Shown: in pieces, positions 21,095 to 25,046 of the stretch
How positions within the stretch are numbered: position 1 is the first letter of the stretch
How the letters are laid out: every line of letters begins with the position of its first letter
NCBI RefSeq assembly: GCF_021462505.1
Contig: NZ_JAKEDV010000003.1
Location: 1 to 64,000 of the forward strand
Length of the DNA stretch: 64,000 bases
Direction: 5' to 3'
Source of the DNA: Thermus brockianus
GTDB taxonomy: Bacteria > Deinococcota > Deinococci > Deinococcales > Thermaceae
Notes under the pieces: model-generated
Seen by the model: only the letters and a program-made list of their open reading frames with translations
Told to the model about the DNA's origin: nothing
Databases searched by the model: none
Translations under genes and position numbers: made by a program

Positions 21095-22045
21095 ATGGAC
21101 CGCTTGGGCCGCCTCCTCTACCTGGCCGCTTGGCTCGGCCTTCCCGTGGGCATCGGCCTCCAGCTCTACTTCTACCCGCCCAAGGCCCCGGGGCTTTGGT
21201 GGGTCTATGGCGCCTTCGCCCTCCTTTTCCTCTTCGCCCTAACCCGAGGGCCGAAGCGGGCTCCCAGGTTCCTGGTCCACGGGCTTGGGGCCTACCTCCT
21301 CTTTGAGCTTTGGCGGGCCCAGGGGGAGGGGTGGGTGGTGGGGTTCTGGTCCTCGGCCCTCTACCTTCTGGCTGCCCTTGCCTACCCCGTGCCCTGGGCC
21401 TTGGCGGCCTCGGGCTTTTGGGGAGGGCTCCTGGTTTTTGCCCCCCTCCTTTGGGGGTGGGAGCGCCCCTACTACGCCCACTTCGCCCTAAGCCAGCCCG
21501 TCCTCCTGGCCCTCACCCTCCTCCTCGCCCGCTTCCGGGAGCTCTACGGCCAGGCCCGCTTCTGGCGGGAACAGGCCCTCACCTGCCCCCTCACGGGCCT
21601 TCCCAACCGCCGGGCCCTGGAGATGGCCCTGGAGCGGGAGGCGGCCCGGGTGGAGCGGGGGGCTAAGCCCTTTAGCCTGATCCTCTTGGACCTGGACGAT
21701 TTCAAGCGGGTGAACGATGAGAAGGGCCATCCCGAGGGGGACCGGCTCCTGAAGGAGGTGGCCCGTTATCTGGTGGCCCACGTGCGCCGGGGCGACCTGG
21801 TGGGCCGTTTTGGAGGAGAGGAGTTCGCCATCCTCCTGCCGGAGACGGACCCCCTCCAGGCCACCCGCCTAGCCGAGCGGCTTCGGGAGGGCCTTAAAGC
21901 CCTGGGCACCACGGCGAGCTTCGGCGTGGCCTCCTACCGGGGGGACCTTTCCGAGCTCTACCAAAGGGCGGACGAGGCCCTTTACCAGGCCAAGCGGGCG
22001 GGGAAGGACCGCGTGGTCCGGCGCACCGATCAGGGGAGCCGGTAG
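21095..22045 (+). CDS. Membrane-bound GGDEF diguanylate cyclase
   Basis: 316 aa. Five to six hydrophobic segments fill the first 150 residues, then a GGDEF domain (about 165-310) that makes cyclic di-GMP from GTP. The active-site motif is GGEEF, a catalytically competent form. An inhibitory I-site RRGD lies five residues before it, so product feedback is expected. ATG at 21095 is preferred; an in-frame TTG at 21077 would add six residues. It converges on tyrA with a 16-base overlap. Confidence 0.88.
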
Positions 22046-23109
22046 CCCGCCCCCTCCAGGACCCGCTTAGCCTCCTCCCGCTCCTCCCGGGTGGCGAAGG
22101 AGAGGCGCAAGGCCCCCGCCGCCTCGCGGATGGTGAGAACCTCTATGTCCTTGATGTTCACCCCCGCTTCCCCTAAGGCGGTGGCGATGCGGGCGATCTC
22201 CCCGGGGCGGTCCGGCACCTGGACCACCAGGTCGTACATCTCGGGGAGGAGGCTTCGCCGCACGATGGGGAGGCTATCCCGGGTGCGCTTGGCCTCCTCG
22301 GCTACCCGCAAGAGGCCCTCGGGTTCGTCCAGAAGATCCTCGAGGTCCAAAAGCACCGCCCTTAGCTCCTCTATGGCCTCCTTCAGGGCCTCCTTGTTCT
22401 CCACCACCATGTCCCGGCTCATCCTGGGGCTTCCCGAGGCCACCCGGGTGAGGTCGCGGAAGCCCCCGGCGGCCAGGAACATGAGGAGTTCCTTGTGGGG
22501 GCTTTGCGCCACCAGGCGGTTTAGGGCCACGGCCAGGAGGTAGGGGAGGTGGGAGATGCGGGCCACCAGTTGGTCGTGGAGGGAGGGGGGCATCTCCAGG
22601 GGGTAGGCCCCCAGGGCCTCCACCAGGTGCCGTATCCCCTCCCGGGCCTTGGGGTCCGTGCGGGCCGTGGGGGTTAGGACCCAGACGGCGTTTTGCAAGA
22701 GCCCGGCGTGGGCGTTTTCCACCCCGGCCCGCTCGCTCCCCGCCATGGGGTGGCCCCCCAGGTAGTGGGGAAGAAGCCCCTCCAGCTGGGCCACCACCTT
22801 GCCCTTGACGCTGCCCACGTCCGTCCAGAGGCTTTCGGGGTGGGCCAAGGGGGCCAGGGCCTTGGCGAGGCCGGGCAGGGCCCCCACGGGGGCGGCGAGG
22901 ATGCCCAGGGAAAGCTCCCCCACCCAAGGCCCTAGCTCCGCATGCACCCGGTCCGCCACCCCCAGGAAGAGGGCCTTCTCCAGGGCCAAGGGGTCTTGGT
23001 CGTAGGCGTGCACCTCCTGGGCCAGGAAGCGCTCCTTAAGCCCCAAGGCCACACTCCCCCCCAGGAGGCCCACGCCGAAGATGCCCACCTTGCCGAAGAG
23101 GGGCTTCAT
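22030..23109 (-). CDS. tyrA: Prephenate dehydrogenase with C-terminal ACT domain
   Basis: A 359-aa NAD(P)-dependent enzyme of tyrosine synthesis that oxidatively decarboxylates prephenate. The Rossmann motif GVGLLGGSVALGLKE is at about 11-25, the catalytic region has GGHPMAGSERAGVENA, and an ACT domain (VVQVPDRPGEIARIATALGEAG, about 291 on) probably senses tyrosine. It overlaps aroF by 4 bases (ATGA), so it is translationally coupled and lies under the aroF leader. Confidence 0.95.
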   Translation of the reverse strand: MKPLFGKVGIFGVGLLGGSVALGLKERFLAQEVHAYDQDPLALEKALFLGVADRVHAELGPWVGELSLGILAAPVGALPGLAKALAPLAHPESLWTDVGSVKGKVVAQLEGLLPHYLGGHPMAGSERAGVENAHAGLLQNAVWVLTPTARTDPKAREGIRHLVEALGAYPLEMPPSLHDQLVARISHLPYLLAVALNRLVAQSPHKELLMFLAAGGFRDLTRVASGSPRMSRDMVVENKEALKEAIEELRAVLLDLEDLLDEPEGLLRVAEEAKRTRDSLPIVRRSLLPEMYDLVVQVPDRPGEIARIATALGEAGVNIKDIEVLTIREAAGALRLSFATREEREEAKRVLEGAGYRLP

Positions 23110-24140
23110 GCCAGGGCAGGGGTGGAAAGGCTCTTATCCAGGGCCGCCACCAGGCGGCGCACCTTTTCCATAAGCTCGGCGAACTCGTGCTCGTGAAGTT
23201 GCTGCGCCGCATCGGAAAGGGCCTTCTCCGGCTCGGGGTGGGTCTCCACGATGAGGCCGTCCGCCCCAGCGGCGAGGCCCGCCAGGGCCAGGGGGATGAC
23301 CCATTCCCGCTTGCCCGCCGGGTGGGAGGGGTCCACCCAGACGGGGAGGTGGGTCCAGCTTTTGAGAACGGGCACGGCGGAAACGTCCAGGGTGAAGCGG
23401 GTGGCCTTCTCAAAGGTGCGGATGCCCCGCTCCACCAGGATGACCTGCATGTTCCCCCGGGAGAGGATGTACTCGGCGCTCATCAAAAACTCTTCCAGGG
23501 TCATGCTCATGCCCCGCTTGAGGAGGACGGGTTTCTTGGCCTCCCCCACCGCCTGGAGGAGGGGGAAGTTCTGGGCGTTGCGGGCCCCGATTTGGAAGGC
23601 GTCGGCGTACTCCGCCACGAGCTCCACCTGTTCGGGGGAAAGGACCTCCGTGACCACGGGAAGGCCCGTTTCCTTGCGGGCCTCGGCCAGGATCTTTAGC
23701 CCCTCCACCCCCAGGCCCTGGAAGGCGTAGGGGCTCGTGCGGGGCTTGAAGGCCCCGCCCCGGAGCATCCCCGCCCCGTGGGCCTTCACGTAGCGGGCCG
23801 CCCTCAGGGTCTGCTCCCGGGACTCCACCCCGCAGGGGCCCGCCGCCACCAGGACGTGCCCGCCCCCCGTCTTCCCCGTGGGGAACTCCAGGACGGTGGG
23901 GAAGGGCTGGACCTCGAGGCTCGCCAGCTTCCAGGGCTTGGAGATGGGGATGACCTCCGCCACCCCCGGAAGCGCCCGGAAATGTTCCATGAGTTCCGGG
24001 GTGGGGCCCCGCCCAATGGCCCCCACCAGGGTGGTTTCCACCCCGCGGGAGACGTGGGGCCGGTAGCCCACCTTCTCAATCTCCCGCACCACCTCTTCCA
24101 GCTCCGCCTCCGTGTGTCCCCGCTTCATCACGATGAGCAT
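23106..24140 (-). CDS. aroF: 3-deoxy-7-phosphoheptulonate synthase (DAHP synthase)
   Basis: 344 aa, first enzyme of the shikimate pathway, condensing PEP with erythrose 4-phosphate. An N-terminal ferredoxin-like regulatory domain (about 1-70, MLIVMKRGHTEAELEEVV) precedes the TIM barrel with GPCGVESREQT (about 100), RGGAFKPRTSPYAFQG and GARNAQNFPLLQ. This is the Thermotoga-type enzyme, whose N-domain mediates Tyr/Phe inhibition. It is first gene of aroF-tyrA, preceded by GGGAGGGG and an attenuator-like leader. Confidence 0.95.
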   Translation of the reverse strand: MLIVMKRGHTEAELEEVVREIEKVGYRPHVSRGVETTLVGAIGRGPTPELMEHFRALPGVAEVIPISKPWKLASLEVQPFPTVLEFPTGKTGGGHVLVAAGPCGVESREQTLRAARYVKAHGAGMLRGGAFKPRTSPYAFQGLGVEGLKILAEARKETGLPVVTEVLSPEQVELVAEYADAFQIGARNAQNFPLLQAVGEAKKPVLLKRGMSMTLEEFLMSAEYILSRGNMQVILVERGIRTFEKATRFTLDVSAVPVLKSWTHLPVWVDPSHPAGKREWVIPLALAGLAAGADGLIVETHPEPEKALSDAAQQLHEHEFAELMEKVRRLVAALDKSLSTPALA

Positions 24141-24150
24141 GCTCCCCTCC

Positions 24151-24184
24151 CAAAAACCTTGGGCGCCCCCTTTGGGGGGCGCCC
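24151..24184 (-). terminator. Attenuator terminator in the aroF leader
   Basis: Minus strand: GGGCGCCCCC(C)-AAA-GGGGGCGCCC (24184-24161) forms a very stable 10-bp stem, followed by AAGGTTTTTG. It lies between the leader peptide and the aroF start, where it would cut off transcription before aroF unless the alternative pairing forms. Confidence 0.75.
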
Positions 24185-24223
24185 GGTTGCGGTGAAAGCC
24201 TATGCGGACCGCAGGGCGCCCCC
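24174..24223 (-). promoter_or_regulatory. Candidate antiterminator pairing in the aroF leader
   Basis: The 10-base segment GGGGGCGCCC of the terminator's 3' arm also occurs inside the leader-peptide coding region (24223-24214). That earlier copy can pair with the terminator's 5' arm (24184-24174), excluding the terminator. The two copies are 53 bases apart. Confidence 0.65.
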
Positions 24224-24265
24224 GGCGGGATAATAAAAGCCGAAGTAGCGCCCTAGCCTCCGCAT
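24200..24265 (-). CDS. Tyr/Phe-rich leader peptide of the aroF-tyrA operon
   Basis: A 21-codon frame from an ATG at 24265 to TAG encodes MRRLGRYFGFYY followed by PAGGALRSA. Five of six consecutive codons (YFGFYY) are Tyr or Phe, the end products of the operon's pathway. It begins about 10 bases after the -10 box and ends before the terminator hairpin. A ribosome finishing the peptide would cover the first GGGGGCGCCC copy and allow termination; one stalled at the first Tyr/Phe codons would leave it free. Confidence 0.8.
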   Translation of the reverse strand: MRRLGRYFGFYYPAGGALRSA

Positions 24266-24275
24266 ATTGCCCCCA

Positions 24276-24305
24276 AGTTTAGGGGGCATCCCCGCGGCCT
24301 GTCAA
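24276..24305 (-). promoter_or_regulatory. aroF-tyrA promoter
   Basis: Minus strand: consensus -35 TTGACA (24300-24305), 18-bp spacer, -10 TAAACT (24276-24281). The -35 lies within the last codons of the upstream VOC gene. The transcript would start a few bases before the leader peptide ATG. Confidence 0.8.
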
Positions 24306-25046
24306 GCGCACCTGCGCCCCCACGGGGTCCAAAAGGGTTTCCTCCCGCCCAAAGGGGTCCAGGAGGGTGTAGGCCACGAGCCCCGTGGCCCCTTCCGGGG
24401 CCCTCCTTGGCCCCGCCCAGGTGTTGGCCCCCACGTGGTGGTGGTACCCGTCCCAGGCGAAGAAGAGGGCCCCGGGGTAGGTGCGCAAGGTGACCGCCAT
24501 GCCGAGCCTCCCGGCGAAGAAGGCCTCCGCCCCCTCGAGGCCTTCCACGTGCAGGTGGAGGTGGCCGAGGAGGGTTTCCGGGGGCAGGGGGGTGGCCTTG
24601 GGGTTTTCCGCCAGGAGCCTTTCCAGGTTGAGGGGCAGGGTGAACATGAGGGGCCCCTTGGGCCACTCCCCTTGGGGGCGGTCCCGGTAGAGCTCCAGGC
24701 CGTTTCCCTCGGGGTCGCGGAAGTAGAGGGCCTCGGAAACCCCGTGGTCCGCCGCCCCTTCAAAGTGGGCCCCCGCCTCGAGGAGCCTCCGGAAAACCCC
24801 GGCCAGGGCCTTGCGGTCCGGGAGGAGGAGGGCGAAGTGGTATAGCCCCAGGGAGGGGTAGGGCCTTAGGGGCGCCTCGGGGTCGTGGATAAGCTCTAGG
24901 CAAAACCCCCTTCCCTCGGGGAAGAGGCGGTAGCGGGGTGGGTCCGCCTCCACCTTTAGGCCCAGAAGGTCCCGGTAAAACCCCAAGGCGGCCCCCAGGT
25001 CCCGCACCCTTAGGGCCAAGGAGAGGAGCCGCCTGGGAAAGGGCAT
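24279..25046 (-). CDS. VOC-family ring-cleavage dioxygenase-like protein
   Basis: 255 aa with two vicinal-oxygen-chelate modules. Module one (about 5-125) has LALRVRDLGAALGFYRDLLGL, LGLYHFALLLPDR and FRDPEGNGLELYRDRP; module two (about 160-250) has GHLHLHVEGLEGAEAFFAGRLG and DGYHHHVGANTWAG. His and Glu ligands for one metal are present (YHFA, LHLHV, GNGLELY), resembling catechol 2,3-dioxygenase CatE of Bacillus. The true substrate is unknown. The start overlaps the yceI stop by one base. Confidence 0.8.
   Translation of the reverse strand: MPFPRRLLSLALRVRDLGAALGFYRDLLGLKVEADPPRYRLFPEGRGFCLELIHDPEAPLRPYPSLGLYHFALLLPDRKALAGVFRRLLEAGAHFEGAADHGVSEALYFRDPEGNGLELYRDRPQGEWPKGPLMFTLPLNLERLLAENPKATPLPPETLLGHLHLHVEGLEGAEAFFAGRLGMAVTLRTYPGALFFAWDGYHHHVGANTWAGPRRAPEGATGLVAYTLLDPFGREETLLDPVGAQVRLTGRGDAP

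Follow-up and report, generated by a model that had tools for sequence, protein, structure and literature searches.

The stretch of Thermus brockianus DNA analysed here (64,000 nucleotides, hereafter called the window) carries an aroF-tyrA operon on its minus strand, behind a short reading frame rich in Phe and Tyr codons and a hairpin of the terminator type. The question raised by this locus is whether the supply of these two amino acids governs the operon, and by what means. An earlier note, made on the letters of this DNA, had read the arrangement as a Tyr/Phe leader-peptide attenuator. That reading is supported by the sequence tests described below, in which the codon block and both of the exclusive pairings were found to be kept in relatives. 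The element is very probably a ribosome-mediated transcription attenuator that senses a shortage of charged tRNA-Phe or tRNA-Tyr and controls aroF-tyrA, as judged from comparative sequence evidence. The comparison set comprised 111 genomes, all of them outside Deinococcus. It yielded 45 aroF upstream regions from Thermaceae, namely 27 from Thermus and one from a sister genus (together the 28 Thermus-type regions) and 17 from Meiothermus/Calidithermus.

Organization of the aroF-tyrA upstream region

All of the features described here lie on the minus strand. The aroF gene (23106..24140, with its ATG at 24140) encodes a type I beta DAHP synthase of 344 aa with a ferredoxin-like regulatory domain (PF18152, PF00793, TIGR01361). 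The tyrA gene (22030..23109), which overlaps the aroF stop, encodes a prephenate dehydrogenase of 359 aa with an ACT domain (PF02153, PF20463, PF01842). Upstream lies a gene of the VOC/glyoxalase family (24279-25046), within whose 3' end a -35 hexamer, TTGACA (24300..24305), was found; the -10 hexamer, TAAACT (24276..24281), overlaps the TAA stop of the same gene (24281-24279). The two hexamers have an 18-bp spacer and 10 of 12 matches, and one such promoter was found where shuffled sequences led us to expect 0.1. TTGAC is kept in the aroF upstream regions of 45 of 45 relatives, 38-41 nt 5' of the leader ATG. From the distance to the -10 hexamer, the putative transcript start is A24268 or A24267 (24266..24268), so that the leader transcript is probably nearly leaderless, with a 5' UTR of about 2-3 nt. 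The earlier note had placed the start within the upstream gene; the promoter does lie there, but the inferred start falls about 10 nt 3' of that gene's stop. In the Deinococcus-Thermus phylum, a start codon often follows closely on a TANNNT box, and an earlier survey counted about 40% of the genes as leaderless (PMC3160421).

The leader ORF (24200..24265) has 21 codons, reads MRRLGRYFGFYYPAGGALRSA*, and is conserved in 28 of the 28 Thermus-type leaders. Its aromatic block consists of codons 7, 8, 10, 11 and 12. Among all windows of six residues in the six reading frames, only 3 of 115,808 contain five or more aromatic residues. The leader stop is separated from the aroF start by 59 nt here and by 58-62 nt in Thermus. 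This interval contains a GC hairpin of 10 perfectly matched bp (24184-24161); after AAGG comes the T5 tract (24152..24156) of a predicted intrinsic terminator, 4 nt 3' of the stem. The purine-rich ribosome-binding site of aroF, GGGAGGGGA (24143..24151), is outside the terminator. The promoter, the 21-codon frame, and the 10-bp GC hairpin with five T residues before aroF are thus all present as the earlier note had them. The 4-nt offset of the T-run from the hairpin is atypical and less canonical than in Meiothermus, and in some Thermus species the run has just 3-4 T.

Three mutually exclusive pairings

The 3' arm of the terminator (region 4, 24161..24170) has the sequence GGGGGCGCCC, which recurs within codons 15-18 of the leader ORF (region 2, 24214..24223), just 3' of the regulatory codons. 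Region 3, GGGCGCCCCC (24175..24184), is therefore common to two helices, the terminator with region 4 and an antiterminator with region 2 as its 5' arm. This double occurrence of one 10-mer, at 24223-24214 and 24170-24161, had already been noticed, and the predicted exclusiveness of the two pairings is borne out in the folds. GGGGGCGCCC and its complement occur as 10-mers at three places in the 64-kb window, all of them at the leader. The full arm motif has a single occurrence in the 2.35-Mb genome, and 40 dinucleotide shuffles did not produce it. Hairpins of 10 bp as such number seven per strand in the window, versus 2.3 per shuffle.

Two further structures were absent from the earlier note. 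The antiterminator is extended by 5 bp, UGCGG (24209..24213) pairing with CCGCA (24188..24192, read 24192-24188) in the fold and in the pair counts; this extension is paired in 88% of the cells of the counts over 26 distinct sequences. A long 1:2 hairpin lies within the ORF. In its interior the region 1 core, UAGGGCGC (24248..24255), pairs with the region 2 side at 24219-24212 in folds and pair counts, and its outer arm, UAUGCGGA (24259..24266), pairs with UCCGCAUA (24208-24201) at the end of the ORF. The helices of this hairpin are AUGCGGA/UCCGCAU on the outside, UAGGGCGC/GCGCCCUG, and CUUCGGC/GCCGGGG. When folded with no ribosome, the leader forms the long 1:2 hairpin and the 3:4 terminator. 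When the leader is masked to a ribosome at codon 11 and region 4 is not yet made, regions 2 and 3 pair over 10 bp together with UGCGG:CCGCA. The three structures (1:2, 2:3 and 3:4) are mutually exclusive in folding at both 37 and 70 C, and the leader RNA has a fold z of -4.5 (-4.3 to -6.6 in relatives). Folding of the full transcript with a stalled ribosome gave the terminator in several species and the antiterminator in others at 37 C; at 70 C the antiterminator wins at four loci (L001, L012, L020 and L037) and not at two (L027 and L043). With the terminator still the most stable form in several species at 37 C despite the stalled ribosome, the switch would depend on the co-transcriptional order of synthesis.

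The position of the ribosome was modelled by assuming that about 12-13 nt are covered from the A site. With the stall at codon 11 or earlier, the probability of the 2:3 pairing is 0.87-1.00; at codon 12 it is about 0.6, and from codon 13 onwards it is 0. Under this model, the regulatory codons end exactly where the geometry requires, that is, with the A site at codon 12 or earlier. In the window's own sequence, folded with no ribosome before region 4 is made, the 2:3 pairing stands at 0.74, and transcription may not be shut off completely when there is no translation.

The codons themselves are unusual. In the neighbouring genes, Tyr is encoded by TAC 65 times and by TAT 5 times, and Phe by TTC 72 times and by TTT 23 times, whereas among the 28 Thermus-type leaders codon 10 is TTT in all and codon 11 is TAT in 27. 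The run TTT TAT TAT (codons 10-12, 24238-24230) is largely kept in Thermus despite the dominance of TTC and TAC nearby. This retention suggests selection on loop structure or on decoding rate; the TTT and TAT codons may serve to keep a loop unpaired and rich in A/U.

Conservation across the Thermaceae

Each of the 45 aroF upstream regions from Thermaceae has the promoter, the leader ORF, the pairing arms and the terminator. Phe10 and Tyr11 do not vary among the 28 Thermus-type leaders, and every one of these leaders has an aromatic residue at codon 8 (Phe in 27, Tyr in 1); 19 of them have one at codon 7, and 23 at codon 12. All 17 Meiothermus/Calidithermus leaders have an aromatic core, usually FFGYFYWP, and a Trp codon, which the earlier note did not have, is present in 16 of the 17. 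The alignment of Tyr/Phe codons that the note had proposed as a check thus turned out in its favour, with the Phe/Tyr block in every Thermus-type leader. Leader lengths are 21, 24, 26, 27, 28 and 33 codons, the changes being in whole codons with the frame intact. The leader stays with aroF where the sequence further upstream differs (L016 and L024), and the order aroF-tyrA is kept at the three more distant loci that were checked (L069-L071). Five Thermaceae genomes (G027, G028, G041, G044 and G046) gave no match to this aroF at E-values up to 1e-95; the second DAHP synthase was the only one seen in them.

In the pair counts, the terminator stem (3:4) is paired in 100% of the cells. For 1:2 and 3:4 together the figure is 93% in Thermus and 87% in Meiothermus, and for 2:3 it is 96% in each (95.9% in both clades). 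Controls in which the arms were slid reached 37-67% in Thermus and at most 54% (1:2 and 3:4) and 75% (2:3) in Meiothermus, so that for 2:3 they attained at most 67-75% in the two clades. The earlier note had also proposed a search for compensatory changes in both pairings, and here the outcome is divided. Within Thermus, the pair counts revealed no compensatory change in the helices of the terminator and the antiterminator; their arms hardly vary, which is why a covariation signal is absent and the comparison silent. Between the genera, the pairings are kept with different arms: region 3 is GGGCGCCCCC in Thermus versus GCUUCCGGGG in Meiothermus, regions 2 and 4 have changed along with it, and all of the RNA arms differ while forming the same three exclusive pairings. 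In the Meiothermus 1:2 and 3:4 helices, six pairs carry changes in both partners; cells of this kind number 11, which 1 of 500 shuffles matched. Within single Meiothermus genomes, the 2:3 match is only slightly better than in mononucleotide shuffles (median p about 0.13); its strength is its constant position across the 17 genomes.

Proposed mechanism and alternatives

Every feature of classic attenuation that can be tested in sequence was found: a leader ORF, a cluster of regulatory codons, a 3:4 terminator, an exclusive 2:3 pairing, and a 1:2 hairpin within the ORF. For this reason, we adopted ribosome-mediated attenuation, for which the parts, their conservation, the exclusive foldings and the codon-exact geometry come directly from the sequences. 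The transcript start, translation of the leader, stalling, termination and the response are what the model adds by inference. Transcription would begin 2-3 nt before the leader ATG, with the ribosome trailing the polymerase. When Phe or Tyr is scarce, the ribosome would stall with codon 7, 8, 10, 11 or 12 in its A site, covering region 1 and leaving region 2 free; free region 2 and the emerging region 3 would then pair (10 bp plus UGCGG:CCGCA), no terminator would form, and aroF-tyrA would be transcribed. When Phe and Tyr are plentiful, the ribosome would reach the stop codon and cover region 2, and the 3:4 terminator would end transcription. In the absence of translation, the 1:2 hairpin would favour formation of the terminator. 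A more tentative extension, which we regard as possible but rather doubtful, is that a combined Phe, Tyr and Trp sensor in Meiothermus/Calidithermus was narrowed to Phe and Tyr in Thermus, that a shortage of any one of these would open the shared pathway at its first step, and that the F-G-x-F-Y-x-P core may add stalling that depends on the nascent peptide.

The same core could also act alone as a TnaC- or SecM-like arrest peptide, stopping the ribosome in response to a free aromatic amino acid or some other signal, with the same RNA switch following. Neither Gly9 nor Pro13 varies any more than the aromatic residues do, and genera with different RNA arms share the order F-G-..-F-Y-..-P. However, in both genera the Gly and Pro codons form part of RNA stems or adjoin them, which could explain their conservation; the N-terminal part of the leader is of variable length and sequence; and Tyr, Pro or Arg can stand at codon 12 in Thermus, as Trp or Arg can at the matching place in Meiothermus. 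The aromatic codons, moreover, specify the very amino acids that the controlled pathway makes, as is predicted for attenuation by codon starvation, and such an arrest is improbable as the main signal. Control at the RNA level without translation, by a riboswitch, a T-box or an RNA-binding protein acting on 1:2 versus 2:3, would agree with the strong and conserved structure (z of -4.3 to -6.6), but it leaves unexplained an intact ORF whose length changes in whole codons and whose aromatic codons lie at the switch point. No Rfam family was recognized at threshold (all 8 hits were below the gathering scores, and none was a leader or T-box family), and we consider this kind of control very unlikely.

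Nor does it seem at all likely that translation of the leader acts mainly on translation of aroF, through coupling or reinitiation, and less on termination. The gap between the leader stop and the aroF start is short, and for Deinococcus-Thermus one study proposes that ribosomes reinitiate at leader ORFs (PMC4833913). That proposal, however, concerns gaps near 10 bp, and the study sets a minimum of about 40 bp for attenuators, which the gap here reaches. In addition, a hairpin of the terminator type with its T-run lies in between, and the aroF ribosome site is outside it. This genome is GC-rich and has many strong hairpins, and the one here might be the terminator of the upstream gene and the ORF a product of chance, with aroF-tyrA unregulated at this point. 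Such a coincidence is barely credible, since the reading frame and the aromatic codons are kept in 45 of 45 genomes, and the leader, with its own promoter, and the terminator persist at the two loci with a different upstream sequence.

Relation to known attenuators

The Escherichia coli pheL-pheA and pheM-pheST attenuators have a leader peptide with Phe codons, 1:2, 2:3 and 3:4 pairings, and an intrinsic terminator, and their leader ORF is preceded by a Shine-Dalgarno site. They sense Phe alone, whereas the Thermus leader has both Phe and Tyr codons. E. coli trpL and the Thermus trpE leader are similar in anatomy, but with Trp codons in place of Phe and Tyr codons. The Thermus aroF leader resembles pheL and pheM in its leader peptide, three pairings, terminator and aromatic target (regulation: PMC11802643); E. 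coli aroF is controlled by TyrR instead (PMC11802643). According to PMC4046766 and to Neshat et al. 2014 as given in PMC11802643, the aroF operon of Corynebacterium glutamicum has a leader, AroR, with Phe-Tyr-Phe, which responds to Phe and not to Tyr, and stalling of the ribosome at aroR raises transcription. Both there and here, a short Phe/Tyr leader ORF precedes a DAHP synthase gene in a phylum rich in leaderless starts. The two differ in phylum, and the Thermaceae leaders have more Tyr codons, with Trp in addition in Meiothermus. The parallel, which the earlier note did not draw, is a functional one. Shared logic in Thermus and Corynebacterium would point to the device having been invented more than once.

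A putative attenuator before aroA-Ibeta > tyrA of Thermus thermophilus, taken from the Merino database, was listed in a study of TyrA in 2005 (PMC1173090, Table 7), likewise absent from the earlier note. As the operon and the genus are the same, this is very probably the same element. The listing is a table entry only, with no codons, peptide or Meiothermus relatives, and the term "leader peptide" does not occur in the main text (PMC1173090). No aromatic leader peptide of Thermus was described in the open-access literature that we searched. The leader peptide and its conservation are therefore new, as is the difference between Phe+Tyr and Phe+Tyr+Trp, the attenuator itself having already been predicted; a classic type of control device gains a further, well-conserved member here, and no new type is involved. 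If correct, it would provide a well-anchored case of codon-starvation attenuation in Deinococcus-Thermus, one that has to function near 70 C with a nearly leaderless transcript and three competing GC-rich pairings. It would also offer a natural comparison of how sensing drifts while the operon remains constant, with Phe+Tyr+Trp in Meiothermus, Phe+Tyr in Thermus, and Tyr-only leaders of a different type in sister families. For the field, it mainly adds detail to an attenuator already predicted.

Other aromatic amino acid genes and sister families

Before trpE of Thermus, a nearly leaderless leader of 11 codons (10 in one), xxxxxxxWWPG*, is followed by a terminator of the CCCCGGGG type. The WWPG leader was found in 21 of the 28 trpE loci scanned (L075, on C3 of the same genome, and L112-L138 from further Thermus), and an attenuator at trpE was reportedly described for T. 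thermophilus in 1988. With leaders at both trpE and aroF, attenuation seems to be a habit of Thermus for the aromatic amino acids. No leader attenuator was seen before the second DAHP synthase, which is fused to chorismate mutase, in the one relative inspected (L028), where the promoter runs straight into the ATG and the gene is apparently leaderless; nor was a leader present in the upstream region read for pheA.

In two sister families of the same order (f4 and f5; L049-L068), a different leader occurs about 30-160 nt before aroF-tyrA. Its core, GGxGA-[MV][ED]DGY[GP]GY, has Tyr codons and lies behind a GGAGGTG-like site, and no clear intrinsic terminator was recognized by eye. This leader may represent a distinct Tyr-sensing element, and a strict DNA motif derived from it occurs once per genome in six genomes.
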